Both the position numbers and the translations under genes were made by a program. A stretch of DNA of 5,187 bases from Deltaproteobacteria bacterium (GTDB lineage Bacteria > Desulfobacterota > Desulfobacteria > Desulfobacterales > JAFDDL01): positions 1 to 5,187 of the forward strand of contig JAFDDL010000314.1 of assembly GCA_019310865.1 (NCBI GenBank). The letters run 5' to 3'. Every line of letters starts with the position of its first letter. The first letter of the stretch is position 1. Positions 1 through 5,187 of the stretch are shown one piece after another. The notes beneath the pieces are model-generated. The model was not told the origin of the DNA. It made no database searches and saw only the letters and a list, made by a program, of their open reading frames with translations.

Positions 1-101
1 CCCCAACCACCCGGCAATGGGCTGATGAGATCGGGGCCGACCTGTATTGTACAGATGCCGGGTCGGCGCCGAAGCAGATTGCTGAACTCATTGGATCATA
101 A
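1..101 (+). CDS. Corrinoid (cobalamin-binding) methyl-carrier protein, C-terminal end only (MtmC/MtbC/MttC-like)
   Basis: An open frame enters from the left edge (first full codon at 3) and ends at TAA 99-101, giving 32 residues. The visible tail contains QWADEIGADLYCTDAG followed by an amphipathic helix ending IAELIGS. This resembles the closing helix of the Rossmann-like B12-binding domain of methylamine and methanol corrinoid proteins, which typically end with an ADEIGAD-type segment, an acidic/alanine turn and a last helix. In the family, this protein carries Co(I)/methyl-Co(III) cobamide between a substrate-specific methyltransferase and a second methyltransferase acting on coenzyme M or tetrahydrofolate. 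The DxHxxG cobalt-ligand motif would lie upstream of the window and cannot be checked. The next gene is an MtmB-family methyltransferase 84 nt downstream on the same strand, as in mtmCB operons, which supports the call. The exact subfamily (MtmC, MtbC or MttC) cannot be told from 32 residues. Confidence 0.78.
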   Translation, partial: PTTRQWADEIGADLYCTDAGSAPKQIAELIGS

Positions 102-185: not shown

Positions 186-1568
186 ATGTCCGTACCGTAT
201 CATATGTGGGAGATTCAGGAACGTTCCCTCACCGGCCCGTACTGTGATGACAATGATTTTTTACCTAAAATCTTTTCACCGAAACTTAAAGAGGTCATAC
301 AAAAATACGACATCAAGGCTGATTTGAGCCATCCGGTCCCTGTGGATGACAATATGGCGGATCGGCTTTGGCAGGCTGGATGGGAACTGTTCCGGGATGT
401 GGGTCTGTACAACACGGATACGCACCGAATGATCCGTCTGTCGGACCAGGAGATCAAAGAGGCGCTCTACTCGCTTCAGGATGAATATCGCGTCGGAGAA
501 GGGCGAGACGCCAGGGTTTGGCGCTACCGGGATATCGAGGACAAGAATCCGCCTTTTTGCATATACAGTGGAGATGCCACCTGCTCCGAGGCGTTGCACT
601 ACTCTCAATGTGTGGCCTATCTCAAGGAGCCGCTGCTGGACGGATTCTGTGCCCCAATCCTGGAGGACACAATCGGGCAGAAAATACGATCCGGCTCCCC
701 CTCGGAAATCAATGCCTGCACGCAACATATCTACAATATGCGCCTGGCGGCAAAGCAGGTGGGGCGCCCTGGAACCTTTTTCGTTGCCGTCGGAACGGCG
801 GAGCACGACTCCGGGCAGATTGCCGTGTCAAACCCGGAGTGGGGCGTGCGGCCCACCGACACGAGAATTATCGGGACCTTGACGGAGTTCAAGACCGCCG
901 ATACGATGTTGAACCGCGCGGTGCATTGCGCCCAGTACGGGTGCTATGCCGGCAACTTGACCGGCCCCATATATGGTGGTTGGTGTGGTGGTTCCGAAGG
1001 CGTTGCAGTGGCCTTGGTGGCCTACAGCCTCAGCGGCTTGTGTATTCACGGCGCCATTTTCAACCAGCATTTTCCGTTTCACCTAAACTGGGGCTCCAAC
1101 ACGACCCGAGAATTGCTTTGGCCCATTGCCATGGCCGGGCAGGCCATGAGCAGAAACAGCCGGCTTCGATACACCTCCAACGGATTTGCAAATGCAGGCC
1201 CCATGACGGAAATGCTGTTCTACGAAACCGCATGCCATGCCATGGTCAGCACCGTATGCGGGTGGGATCTGTGGGAGATGGCGTCCACGAGAAATAAACT
1301 CAGGGATGCCGCCACCCCAATGGAAGCCAGAATCGGCGCTGAAGTGGGACATGCCGTCGCCCGTCAGGGAATGACCCGGGAAAAGGCCGATGAAATCGCC
1401 AACCGGATCTTGGAAAAATATGAAGATCAGGCGGCCACTGCACCTGCCGGTAAGCTGTATCAGGAATGTTACGACGTTGAAAGGGCACTTCCGACAACGG
1501 AACACCTGGACATGTTCCACAGGGTCAAGGAAGATTTAAGCGAATTGGGCATCAAGTTTCCCTATTGA
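186..1568 (+). CDS. mtmB: MtmB-family (monomethylamine-type) corrinoid methyltransferase lacking pyrrolysine
   Basis: Complete 460-residue cytoplasmic protein; archaeal MtmB is 458 residues. No signal peptide or membrane segment is apparent. The family is a TIM barrel that transfers a methyl group from its substrate to the cobalt of a partner corrinoid protein, here presumably the gene just upstream. Compared with Methanosarcina MtmB as I recall it, shared blocks are NTDTHR (76-81), GxGRDA (104-109), GRPG (193-196), LTEFK (232-236), YGGWCGGSE (263-271), WGSNTTREL (302-310), AGPMTEM (337-343), PMEARIGAEV (378-387) and APAGKLYQECYDV (419-431). Archaeal and bacterial Pyl-type MtmB carries pyrrolysine, encoded by in-frame UAG, at residue 202. 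Here the frame is uninterrupted and the aligned residue is Val202 (GTC, 789-791). The family symbol is given, but activity on monomethylamine is not implied and another methylated substrate is plausible. Thirteen cysteines fit an anaerobic cytosol. Start chosen from AAGGAG at 172-177. The 3' end overlaps the convergent regulator gene by 17 bp. Family assignment is firm; substrate is unknown. Confidence 0.9.
   Translation: MSVPYHMWEIQERSLTGPYCDDNDFLPKIFSPKLKEVIQKYDIKADLSHPVPVDDNMADRLWQAGWELFRDVGLYNTDTHRMIRLSDQEIKEALYSLQDEYRVGEGRDARVWRYRDIEDKNPPFCIYSGDATCSEALHYSQCVAYLKEPLLDGFCAPILEDTIGQKIRSGSPSEINACTQHIYNMRLAAKQVGRPGTFFVAVGTAEHDSGQIAVSNPEWGVRPTDTRIIGTLTEFKTADTMLNRAVHCAQYGCYAGNLTGPIYGGWCGGSEGVAVALVAYSLSGLCIHGAIFNQHFPFHLNWGSNTTRELLWPIAMAGQAMSRNSRLRYTSNGFANAGPMTEMLFYETACHAMVSTVCGWDLWEMASTRNKLRDAATPMEARIGAEVGHAVARQGMTREKADEIANRILEKYEDQAATAPAGKLYQECYDVERALPTTEHLDMFHRVKEDLSELGIKFPY
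1552..1568. other. Tail-to-tail coding overlap of 17 bp between the methyltransferase and the regulator
   Basis: The plus-strand methyltransferase ends with TGA at 1566-1568, and the minus-strand regulator ends with TGA read from 1554 down to 1552. The final residues GIKFPY of the first and INRET of the second are thus encoded on opposite strands of the same DNA. No stem-loop plus T-tract is visible on either strand around the junction, so full-length transcripts of the two units would be complementary at their 3' ends. Confidence 0.9.
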
Positions 1569-4500
1569 TACCCAGCTTTTTCATTCTGCCATACAGGGTA
1601 TTGGGATGAATATCGAGGATATCCGAGGCCGAGCCCTTGCCCTGTATCTTCCCACCGGTTGCTTTAAGGGCCCGGATAATATGCGCGCGCTCAAGTTCTC
1701 GAAGGGTTTCAATTCTACCCTTCTGATCCGTTGTGGTATGCTTATGGCTGGATTCCGGTAATTTGAATCGGGGCCCATGACTCAAAATCACGCCCCGTTC
1801 AATGACATTTTCCAGTTCCCGAATGTTTCCGGGCCAATCATAATCGATCAGGCGAGCCATATCGGCTTGTGATATTTTCTTCACCTGCTTTCTGAATTTT
1901 TTTTCATAGATTTTGAGAAAGTAGTATGCCAGAAGCGCAATATCAGCCTTTCGTTCCCGGAGGGGTGGCACATGAATCGGGAACACGTTGAGCCGGTAAT
2001 ACAGATCTTCCCGAAACCGATTTTCTTTCACATCCTCATATAGATCCCGATTGGTGGCTGCGATCAGCCGAAAATCCGATTGGACCGTTTTACTTCCCCC
2101 CAGTCGTTCGAACTCTCTGGTCTGGATGACCCGGAGCAGCCGCAGCTGGACATCCATTGAGATGTCACCGATTTCGTCAAGAAAGATGATGCCTTTATCG
2201 GCCAGTTCGAATCGACCCATTCGCCGGTCCCTGGCACCGGTAAACGCGCCTTTTTCATGTCCGAAAAGCTCACTTGTGATCAGGGTGTCTGGAAAAGCCG
2301 AGCAGTTCGTGCGAATAAAGGGCTGGTCGCTTCTGTCACTGCGCTGGTAGATGGCGCGTGCAACCAGCTCTTTTCCCACGCCGGTTTCACCCAATATGAG
2401 CACATTGGAATCCGTGGCGGCCACCTGCACGACCTTTTGCAGTACATTTTTTATTGCTTGGCTTTCTCCCACGATTTCGTCGAATTGAAAATTTTCAAAC
2501 TGCTGGGCCTCATAATATCGATTTTCCTGCTCGAGGGCTTCATAGGCCTCTGCATTGTCCATGGCGATGGCTGCCTGGGCGGCGAAAAAGGAGAGGATTT
2601 CAAGATCAGATTCTTCAAAGTTGCTCCGGAAAAACCGGTTGTCATGGTACAGCACGCCGACCACGGTGTCCCTGATTTTCATGGGGACGCAGATGCAGTC
2701 GCGGACGATAATATTCTGAGAAGTCTGTTTTTTTGTGGGTGCCCGTTTTTGAATTTGGCCGGTCTCGGTGGTAAAGGTTTTTTCAATTAAGCTCATTTGA
2801 GCGGCAAAATCCGGGTGATCGATATCATCGGTGGTCAGGTTTTTGGCCGCTCGCAGTACCGGCTTTTGGGTGGATGCCTCCTTATCCAGAAGGAAGATGG
2901 CGCCGCGTTCGGCGCCGGTGATGCTATTTGCCGTGGACAGAATATGCCCAGCCAACTCCCGGTTGTCTCGAATCACCACCAGGTCTTGACCGAGTTTCAT
3001 TATTTTTTTTAAAAGCCCCTTGTCGTCTTGACGATCCCTTCGTAAAAACATCAAGTCTTCGGGGAGCAAATAATCCCCGTACGTATCGAGGATCGGGCCG
3101 AGTTTCTGCATGGCCTTTCCGGCCCTGGTTTCATCATCGATCAGCAGGTATTGTCGAATCAGTTCAATATATGTTTTCGCTAATTCAGTCTGGTGCCCCG
3201 ATGCCGTCAGCCACTTAATCGACAAGTTGTACGATTGGATGATATTTTCGTGATCTTCTTTCGCCTTTCTTCGAAGAAGCCCCTGGCACCGATAGGCCAT
3301 TCCCTTTGCGCAAATATGTTTGCCTCTAACGGTGCTGTTAATCAATTTGTCGATGGGAAGTTTTAGAAAATCCGGTGATTGGCCCGCTTCTTCCAATTTC
3401 CAGCAAAGTTCAATCAGGTTAAACAAATGGTTGGGTACCATTTTCATCTTGTCGCTTAACTCAAGACATTGTTTTAGACACGCGATACATTTTTCCTGCT
3501 CATTGAGCCTGTTGTATGCTTCCGCCAGATATTGATAGCTATAACCCAAATAAATATCACTGGATGCTTTGGACGTTTTAACTTTCGAGCGCTTCAAGTG
3601 CTTCATCGCTTCATCGACACGATTAAGCTCAAGCAGTATGACGCCAATTCCGAAAGACAGCAATCCATCCACAAAAGCATCCCCTTTATCGGCATAATGG
3701 GTGGACAGGGTGTCCAGCAATCCCATTCCCTGGGTCACTTTTCCGGTCAGTCCGTAGGCGCAGCCCGTGTAAATGGTCGCCAGCGCGGAAAGCCTGGTTT
3801 TGGGATGTTTTGCTACTTCCGGTGCAAATTCCTCATAATTTGAAATGACTTGCACATATCGTCCCTGCCCATACAGCAGCAAGGTACTATATTCAGTGGC
3901 TGTTTGCTTGAGCATCGGTTCATTCAATTCTTCGATGATGTCCCATCCACGATGCAGATGACGAAGCGCGCTGTTCATGTTGCCAAGAAAATAATCCGTC
4001 TTGCCAAGGTGCATTTCCAAAATACCCATCCACGGCTTGTGGTCACGTTTTCGGGCCCTTTTCATTGCAGCGTGCAAGGCATCGGTGACAGGCGCGATGT
4101 GCGAATCGGGTTCGGAAAAATAAGAATATCCAATCGCCGATCTTATAAAAAGTTCATCCGCCTCCTCGTCGTCATTGTTTTTAAGGTCATCCAATACTTT
4201 GATAATATATGGTTTTGCCTTCTTGAATCGATTCATTTCCACATGAATCATACCGGCTTTCACCAGCCGGCGACAGCCTTCTATGCCATTTTTAATATTG
4301 AGAAGATGCGTTGCCACGAGCGTGATGGTTTCATCATCATCCACCGGCTCTTTCAGGAGAATATCGATGATGGCCTGGTTTGATCGTTTCCTTTCGCCCC
4401 GGTCCAATGTTTCTTTCAACTGATTGCGATCTTCATCGTTTTTGAATCGATACTTGCCGGGTTCTATTTGGATAATGAGCCCCTGTGCGATCCCGTCCTC

Positions 4501-4674
4501 GACGGACGAAAGAATCTCTGCGACCTTCAATCCGGTCAGTTCCAGAAGCCAGTCGATGGAAAAAAATCCCTCAAACAAGGATGCAAGGGTCAGCAGGCGG
4601 CGTTTGGAAGCGGTGACAACCATATTCAAAAGATTCTCCCCCATAATAATACCCATTGTATCCCACATTCGCAT
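1552..4674 (-). CDS. Sigma-54 enhancer-binding transcriptional activator with winged helix, TPR-like, GAF, AAA+ and Fis-type HTH domains
   Basis: Up to 1040 residues. Domains in order: a winged-helix-like module (about 23-90, resembling the one after the NTPase in MalT-type STAND proteins); helical TPR-like repeats (about 95-545, for example around 221-250, 341-364 and 375-410); a GAF domain (about 560-708); a short polar linker; a sigma-54 AAA+ ATPase (about 731-965); and a Fis-type helix-turn-helix (about 988-1036, with IHPNTLYGRMKKLGI). The AAA+ core appears intact: Walker A GETGVGKE (762-769), GAFTGA sigma-54 contact loop (809-814), Walker B IIFLDE (829-834), AATNRD sensor I (872-877), RFREDLYYRLNVFP (886-899) with the likely arginine fingers, and WPGNIREL (947-954) with sensor II. 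In this family ATP hydrolysis opens sigma-54 promoters. The ligand is unknown. There is no receiver domain, so a phosphorelay input is unlikely. A close paralogue lies 27 bp upstream. The start is uncertain: ATG 4674 has no Shine-Dalgarno site, whereas GGGGGAG (4642-4636) precedes TTG at 4629 and ATG at 4623. Control of the convergent methyltransferase operon is inference. Confidence 0.93.
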   Translation of the reverse strand: MRMWDTMGIIMGENLLNMVVTASKRRLLTLASLFEGFFSIDWLLELTGLKVAEILSSVEDGIAQGLIIQIEPGKYRFKNDEDRNQLKETLDRGERKRSNQAIIDILLKEPVDDDETITLVATHLLNIKNGIEGCRRLVKAGMIHVEMNRFKKAKPYIIKVLDDLKNNDDEEADELFIRSAIGYSYFSEPDSHIAPVTDALHAAMKRARKRDHKPWMGILEMHLGKTDYFLGNMNSALRHLHRGWDIIEELNEPMLKQTATEYSTLLLYGQGRYVQVISNYEEFAPEVAKHPKTRLSALATIYTGCAYGLTGKVTQGMGLLDTLSTHYADKGDAFVDGLLSFGIGVILLELNRVDEAMKHLKRSKVKTSKASSDIYLGYSYQYLAEAYNRLNEQEKCIACLKQCLELSDKMKMVPNHLFNLIELCWKLEEAGQSPDFLKLPIDKLINSTVRGKHICAKGMAYRCQGLLRRKAKEDHENIIQSYNLSIKWLTASGHQTELAKTYIELIRQYLLIDDETRAGKAMQKLGPILDTYGDYLLPEDLMFLRRDRQDDKGLLKKIMKLGQDLVVIRDNRELAGHILSTANSITGAERGAIFLLDKEASTQKPVLRAAKNLTTDDIDHPDFAAQMSLIEKTFTTETGQIQKRAPTKKQTSQNIIVRDCICVPMKIRDTVVGVLYHDNRFFRSNFEESDLEILSFFAAQAAIAMDNAEAYEALEQENRYYEAQQFENFQFDEIVGESQAIKNVLQKVVQVAATDSNVLILGETGVGKELVARAIYQRSDRSDQPFIRTNCSAFPDTLITSELFGHEKGAFTGARDRRMGRFELADKGIIFLDEIGDISMDVQLRLLRVIQTREFERLGGSKTVQSDFRLIAATNRDLYEDVKENRFREDLYYRLNVFPIHVPPLRERKADIALLAYYFLKIYEKKFRKQVKKISQADMARLIDYDWPGNIRELENVIERGVILSHGPRFKLPESSHKHTTTDQKGRIETLRELERAHIIRALKATGGKIQGKGSASDILDIHPNTLYGRMKKLGINRET
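1947..1980. repeat. 34-bp direct repeat shared with 5124-5157 (one mismatch), inside the two paralogous regulator genes
   Basis: On the plus strand, 1947-1980 and 5124-5157 match at 33 of 34 positions; the single difference is C at 1958 versus T at 5135. Both encode PIHVPPLRERKA in their regulators, just after the AAA+ arginine-finger region. Identity at almost all synonymous sites exceeds what protein constraint requires, while flanking sequence diverges more. A second similar segment covers the 3' ends (from about 1570 and about 4747). The repeat reflects paralogy of the two genes, not a mobile element. Confidence 0.8.
4636..4642 (-). promoter_or_regulatory. Candidate Shine-Dalgarno site favouring a shorter start for the regulator
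   Basis: On the minus strand the sequence GGGGGAG stands 6 nt before a TTG codon (4629-4627) and 12 nt before an ATG (4623-4621), both in frame with the 1040-residue reading. The longest start (ATG 4674-4672) is preceded by a T-rich stretch with no purine-rich site. The true start may therefore be TTG or ATG at residue 16 or 18 of the longest version; either keeps the winged-helix module intact. Confidence 0.5.
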
Positions 4675-4701: not shown

Positions 4702-5187
4702 TTAGTCGCGAATTTCCCCCGGTGATATGCGTTTTGGCCGTTTGATGCCCAGCTTTTTCATTTTGTTATACAGCGTGTTGGGGTGAATATCGAGGCGTTC
4801 GGCGGCTGCGCCCTTTCCCTGTATCTGGCCATCCGTTGCCTTAAGCGCCCGGATGATATACCGACGCTCCACTTCTTTAAGTGGTATTATTTCCCCCTGC
4901 TCATCGGTTTCCGTGTGCCGATGATGTATTTCCGGCAATTTGAATTGGGTGCCGGCACTCAAAATAACCCCTCTCTCGATCACGTTTTCCAGTTCCCGCA
5001 CATTGCCCGGCCAATCATATGTCATCAATTTCGCCATCGCAGATTCGGTTATCGTCTTAACCGGTTTTCTGAATTTTTTTTGAAATGTTTTCAGGAAATA
5101 ATATGCCAAAAGGGGGATATCCGCCTTTCGTTCCCTGAGGGGTGGCACATGAATCGGAAAAACATTCAGTCTATAATATAGATCCTC
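4702..5187 (-). CDS. Second sigma-54 enhancer-binding activator, C-terminal 161 residues only (runs off the right edge)
   Basis: The frame is open from the right edge to TAA (4704-4702), giving 161 residues. It begins inside the AAA+ domain at EDLYYRLNVFPIH, continues with VPPLRERKADI, a YDWPGNVRELENV sensor-II block, and a linker rich in His/Glu/Thr. It ends in a Fis-type helix-turn-helix (DIHPNTLYNKMKKLGI) with a short basic tail. The apparent start at 5148 is an internal GTG (the Val of VPPLRERK), not a real initiation site; the gene clearly continues upstream. It is about 70% identical to the neighbouring 1040-residue regulator over the shared 137 residues (98 identical by my hand count), so the two are tandem paralogues. 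The Fis-type HTHs are very similar, so overlapping operator recognition is possible. Its sensory domains, Walker motifs and GAFTGA loop lie outside the window. Same strand and 27 bp upstream of the other regulator, so probably one operon. Confidence 0.93.
   Translation of the reverse strand, partial: EDLYYRLNVFPIHVPPLRERKADIPLLAYYFLKTFQKKFRKPVKTITESAMAKLMTYDWPGNVRELENVIERGVILSAGTQFKLPEIHHRHTETDEQGEIIPLKEVERRYIIRALKATDGQIQGKGAAAERLDIHPNTLYNKMKKLGIKRPKRISPGEIRD

Follow-up and report, generated by a model that had tools for sequence, protein, structure and literature searches.

Pyrrolysine is thought to exist for making simple methylamines good methyl donors, and a relative of the monomethylamine methyltransferase MtmB that is built without this residue raises the question of what it demethylates instead. 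We address this for a gene on contig JAFDDL010000314.1 of a Deltaproteobacteria bacterium (GenBank assembly GCA_019310865.1), the 5,187 nucleotides of which we refer to as the window. The gene (positions 186..1568, + strand) encodes a predicted corrinoid-dependent methyltransferase of the MtmB family, 460 amino acids long, in a single open frame that contains no in-frame TAG. The initial annotation presented a pyrrolysine-free MtmB lineage as a parallel to the MttB family. Such a parallel would not be unrecorded, as this kind of gene is already published: in Methanococcoides methylutens Q3c, MtqB has been described as a non-pyrrolysine homolog of MtmB, and the paper on it states that such proteins have been known for many years (PMC13044021). 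The window gene belongs to a separate, bacterial group, the substrate of which is perhaps a methylated amino-acid-like compound. Families containing enzymes both with and without pyrrolysine can reveal the purpose of the residue and tell its gain from its loss, a question that MtqB raised for the MtmB family in 2026.

Family, fold and the pyrrolysine site

The protein scored 292 bits against the Pfam profile MtmB (PF05369; cut-off 25), covering profile positions 3-450 of 450, and phmmer matched its residues 7-458 to MtmB of Methanosarcina barkeri (1l2q/1tv2) with 192 bits. The alignment over the whole length and the frame free of UAG, both described in the initial annotation, were confirmed. 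PF05369 was the sole Pfam family found in the protein at E 0.001, PF06253 of the MttB superfamily not being among the matches, and the predicted structure has the MtmB fold, superimposing on MtmB with a root-mean-square deviation of 1.4 across 450 residues. A search of plasmid records gave no match to the protein at E 1e-5.

The site of interest directly follows a GRPG motif shared with MtmB (residues 193-196; 762..773, + strand). Aligned without gaps from this anchor, pyrrolysine 202 of MtmB falls on Val200 (codon GTT, 783..785, + strand), and phmmer, a MAFFT alignment of 189 sequences and an hhalign profile-profile comparison of two 12-sequence profiles agree on this placement. Neither a TAG codon nor pyrrolysine is thus found at the equivalent of position 202. 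The initial annotation had selected Val202 (codon GTC, 789..791, + strand), which in the hhalign alignment lies two residues beyond the equivalent position; the selection would require a two-residue insertion after GRPG, which hhalign rejects, and seems to stem from an assumption of equal numbering, as the window protein runs two residues behind MtmB here. Because both positions are valine, the residue was named correctly and the codon was not. Val200 is the final residue of a predicted strand (198-200), and pyrrolysine 202 of MtmB is described as attached to a barrel strand (PMC9842639).

The replacement is conserved. Among 119 clade proteins, consisting of the 120 best protein matches minus one excluded by a length filter (P0066, 410 amino acids), 117 carry V at the pyrrolysine column and the remaining 2 carry I, and all 21 rows from genome loci (identical rows removed) have V; the column of MtmB position 204, to which Val202 belongs, contains V in 119/119 and 20/21, respectively. 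The possibility, mentioned in the initial annotation, that a true TAG codon was misread in sequencing to give the valine is refuted by the V or I in every one of the 119 proteins and the V in every genome-locus row, and we give it practically no credence. The conservation at the site and the distribution of differences over codon positions 1, 2 and 3 (90, 45 and 241, respectively, in comparison with L001, which is the closest relative among the 25 genome loci described below) show that the observation at the level of the gene is more than chance.

The change extends to the residues that we take to line the MtmB pocket around pyrrolysine, H228, E229, E259, Q333 and Y335. In the MAFFT alignment, the window protein has R, I, L, N and F at these positions, and the replacement set, distinct from that of MtmB proper, is nearly fixed in the clade: R (119/119) at H228, L (95), I (21), F (2) or M (1) at E229, L (119/119) at E259, N (114), A (4) or G (1) at Q333 and F (114) or Y (5) at Y335. 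With both glutamates gone, the pocket is in keeping with a compound different from methylammonium. A substrate other than monomethylamine is plausible.

A separate clade and the pyl genes of its hosts

The protein search gave 520 matches at E 0.001, the best 120 of which, window itself apart, are 66-79% identical to the window protein. A scan of genome contigs identified 25 loci, all in Deltaproteobacteria/Desulfobacterota or Spirochaetes according to their titles, including one in the isolate Desulfocicer vacuolatum DSM 3385 (L009). The clade is rare in the genome sample examined. Within the phylum of one Spirochaete member (G003), 8 of the 296 genomes matched at E 1e-60, but only the centre genome itself exceeded 66% identity and one other reached 49%; within that of D. 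vacuolatum (G009), 8 of 395 genomes matched at the same threshold and three, the centre included, were at least 67% identical.

In an IQ-TREE quick search of 66 rows, all 12 sampled clade rows were placed under one node with an SH-like approximate likelihood ratio test (SH-aLRT) value of 100, bearing out the expectation that a pyrrolysine-free lineage would form a clade of its own. MtmB, its three nearest full-length relatives and 11 more rows formed a separate group of 15 (SH-aLRT 99), which contained no row of the window clade. Further groups lacking pyrrolysine, Asgard archaea among them, surround both; as the tree is rooted at the midpoint, it does not tell gain of pyrrolysine from loss. 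The window protein is 29% identical to MtmB and 26-38% identical to 17 other compared rows, none of them a near relative of the clade, while the nearest rows outside the clade reach 43-49%.

Some of the surrounding sequences show patterns of their own. Six proteins that are 45-48% identical to M. barkeri MtmB (P0125, P0126, P0127, P0130, P0133 and P0134), one of them named Methanomassiliicoccaceae, have lysine at the pyrrolysine column and keep E259, Q333 and Y/F335, making up a lysine-for-pyrrolysine MtmB group. Three close full-length relatives of MtmB (54-57%; P0121, P0122 and P0123) show Q, Q and C at the column in an otherwise almost intact pocket, and these residues may represent TAG rendered as a sense codon by the gene caller. 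Across the 45 MtmB-family matches in the 25 genomes, none has an internal TAG and three have one TAA; extra family copies with an in-frame TAA (G003:C138:24580-25929 and G001:C29:2815-3300) are probably decayed genes or assembly errors.

The initial annotation further proposed that the enzyme needs no pyl genes. We searched the genomes of the relatives for PylS (TIGR02367). It exceeded its cut-off in 11 of the 25 hosts of clade members, and the four Spirochaete hosts all fell short of it; as genome completeness is not given, any absence is soft. One more genome (G013) gave a partial match of 85 bits, but matches below the cut-off are unspecific, since 13 of 14 control genomes gave some match and only Methanosarcina passed. 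The proposal is partly supported by these results, and the 11 genomes carrying PylS show that the lineage is no mere consequence of lacking pyrrolysine. With its Val/Leu/Leu pocket nearly fixed, and with pylS present in some of its sulfate-reducing and spirochaete hosts and not in others, this bacterial clade is a clean test case for the role of the residue. It is also a candidate for the processing of methylated osmolytes or amino acids in anoxic sediments.

Gene neighbourhood

The window begins with the C-terminal end of a methyltransferase-associated corrinoid protein (3..101, + strand; 32 amino acids and the stop codon), the remainder of which lies beyond it. This tail weakly matches positions 174-202 of NCBIfam NF041607 (MtbC; E 1.2e-4) and shares an ADEIGADLYC/AEEIGADLYC-like end with the corrinoid proteins of L001, L002, L003 and L009. 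The stretch separating the corrinoid frame from the mtmB-like gene contains 2.3 perfect tandem copies of a 14-base unit (122-153). A corrinoid gene lies on the same strand approximately 15-270 bases upstream in all 22 loci with enough upstream DNA, the other three having 138, 1 and 0 bases; the upstream corrinoid protein was scanned in one relative and scored 171 of 350 bits, under the MtbC cut-off. Downstream of the window gene, on the opposite strand and convergent with it, are two sigma-54 type activators in tandem, one complete (1552-4674, - strand; GAF, AAA+ and HTH_8 domains with TPR matches) and the other cut by the window end (4702-5187, - strand), with 74% identity over the shared 150 residues.

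We counted the neighbouring genes over the 25 loci, many of which are limited by contig ends, using labels from BLAST-linkage clusters with annotated representatives and assigning the rest by similarity. The most common were an MttB-like gene (15/25), a 311-amino-acid MtaA/CmuA-like gene (12), a molybdenum oxidoreductase (12), a GntR/UTRA regulator (11) and a methionine-synthase-activation-like gene (9), followed by an amino-acid ATP-binding cassette (ABC) ATPase (8), a family-3 binding protein (7), a pyridine-nucleotide oxidoreductase (6), a RACo-type activator (4) and aminotransferases of two types lumped together (4). The nearest solved structure to the family-3 solute-binding protein, 9e2b, is uninformative on the ligand. 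The MttB-like protein of D. vacuolatum is encoded in a single open frame of 491 amino acids and scores 231 and 230 bits to the glycine betaine type enzymes 2qne and 9yce, tied with 230 for M. barkeri MttB.

Genes of amino acid metabolism appear in several of the loci. IorB and an ADP-forming acyl-CoA synthetase are found in three (L002-L004), and in L002 an IorA-type gene begins at most 20 bases from the stop of the MtmB-like gene; a further genome (L082, the one locus scanned with the IorA profile) has a single run of IclR, IorA, IorB, acyl-CoA synthetase, corrinoid and MtmB-like genes, in a different order. HutH was found over the cut-off in L001, the nearest genome relative. In L013, positions 7375-10643 beside the methyltransferase cluster hold a gene over the cut-off for HypD, trans-4-hydroxy-L-proline dehydratase, and a neighbour of glycyl-radical activase type (378 bits, under the cut-off of 425; scanned in this locus only), and in L022 a HypD-like open reading frame cut by the contig end (L022:3-1754) also stands beside the cluster.

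Proposed reaction and substrate, and known systems

The protein is, on balance, probably the MtxB component of a three-part corrinoid system, that is, a pyrrolysine-free MtmB-family enzyme that would pass a methyl group from an activated compound to the corrinoid protein encoded upstream. We infer the methyl transfer itself, a quaternary substrate and the acceptor from homology and gene context. The substrate would most likely be a quaternary ammonium compound of betaine type, in which the methyl is already activated; one methyl group would be handed to Co(I) of the corrinoid protein whose gene lies immediately upstream, a second methyltransferase (the MtaA/CmuA-like protein of the 12 loci or another) would move it on and the final acceptor in these bacteria would probably be tetrahydrofolate. 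The pyrrolysine adduct would then be unneeded, and Val, Leu/Ile, Leu, Asn and Phe take the place of the polar methylamine pocket of MtmB. The quaternary substrate is suggested by analogy, as the non-pyrrolysine relatives in both families, MtgB and MtqB, act on quaternary amines.

The best lead for the substrate itself is an amino-acid betaine: it would be an N-methylated compound resembling an amino acid, which in several relatives the family-3 amino-acid ABC transporter would import. Taken on its own, the amino-acid class of the substrate is a tentative suggestion. We also put forward, slightly more tentatively still, that the clade could be the first MtmB-family group demethylating N-methylated amino acids or amino-acid betaines of proline, histidine or aromatic type, working in series with the neighbouring non-pyrrolysine MttB-like enzyme on a shared corrinoid, and that the freed amino acid would go to the transaminase, indolepyruvate oxidoreductase and ADP-forming acyl-CoA synthetase in these anaerobic bacteria. 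Several points weigh against this account as a whole. As sigma-54 regulators follow the gene in the window, the context is drawn from relatives of 66-79% identity. No one pathway is common to the loci (IorAB/synthetase in 4, HutH in 1 and HypD in 2), and, in the DNA examined, the MttB-like gene is absent from 10 of the 25 loci and the ABC ATPase from 17. The neighbouring genes point to amino-acid-like substrates but to no single one, in counts made without control neighbourhoods. Finally, a non-pyrrolysine MtmB need not take betaines, since MtqB is described as inactive on glycine betaine as well as trimethylamine (PMC13044021).

The main rival is that the clade represents a bacterial MtqB, demethylating choline and/or tetramethylammonium. 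MtqB converts these at 42 and 37 nmol/min/mg, respectively, and the proposed MtqB branch includes bacterial as well as archaeal species; homologs of MtqB type are also reported from the microbial associates of benthic foraminifera (PMC13044021). The published clade, however, branches near the pyrrolysine-containing MtmBs, whereas the window clade is far from MtmB both in identity (29%) and in the tree, and we saw no choline-specific gene among the annotated neighbours; we consider this reading possible but doubtful. The same study gives a rate of 11 nmol/min/mg for MtqB with monomethylamine, and this low activity, together with the predicted fold shared with MtmB, would allow a slow, pyrrolysine-less monomethylamine methyltransferase. 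Against it, the whole pocket set beyond pyrrolysine is altered and nearly fixed in the clade, and pyrrolysine is available in the 11 host genomes with PylS, making this reading very unlikely.

Demethylation of a sulfonium compound such as dimethylsulfoniopropionate (DMSP) is improbable, though a little less so than that of monomethylamine. D. vacuolatum DSM 3385, with its clade member L009, is presumably one of the sulfate reducers that demethylate DMSP, and a sulfonium methyl group would make pyrrolysine unnecessary. The transporter, on the other hand, is of amino-acid type, the clade has Spirochaete members adjoining aminotransferase and IorAB genes, and the annotated neighbours included no DMSP gene. 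DMSP demethylation as such is known from marine sulfate reducers (van der Maarel 1996, cited in PMC4993014), and the passages of PMC12596276 considered here name no corrinoid DMSP methyltransferase.

Compared with known systems, the window protein resembles M. barkeri MtmB (1nth, 1l2q, 1tv2) in whole-length homology at 28-29% identity and in nearly equal length, and differs in the missing pyrrolysine, in the pocket residues H228, E229, E259, Q333 and Y335 being mostly R, L/I, L, N and F and in its separate clade. MtgB, which acts on glycine betaine (PMC13044021, PMC4993014), and the other non-pyrrolysine enzymes of the MttB superfamily (2qne, 9yce) are of a different family, PF06253, and approximately 12% identical in structural alignment. 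Enzymes of the MttB type with and without pyrrolysine have been described in marine Deltaproteobacteria by Kivenson et al. 2021 (PMC8318568), the main text of which leaves MtmB unmentioned. MtqB, compared by its description only, differs in being archaeal, methanogenic and adjacent to the pyrrolysine-containing MtmBs in the published tree (PMC13044021); no Methanococcoides name occurs among the best 120 matches of each protein search, where a minority of rows carry names. MtqB and the window protein have in common that both are non-pyrrolysine MtmB homologs encoded after an MtbC-like corrinoid protein.
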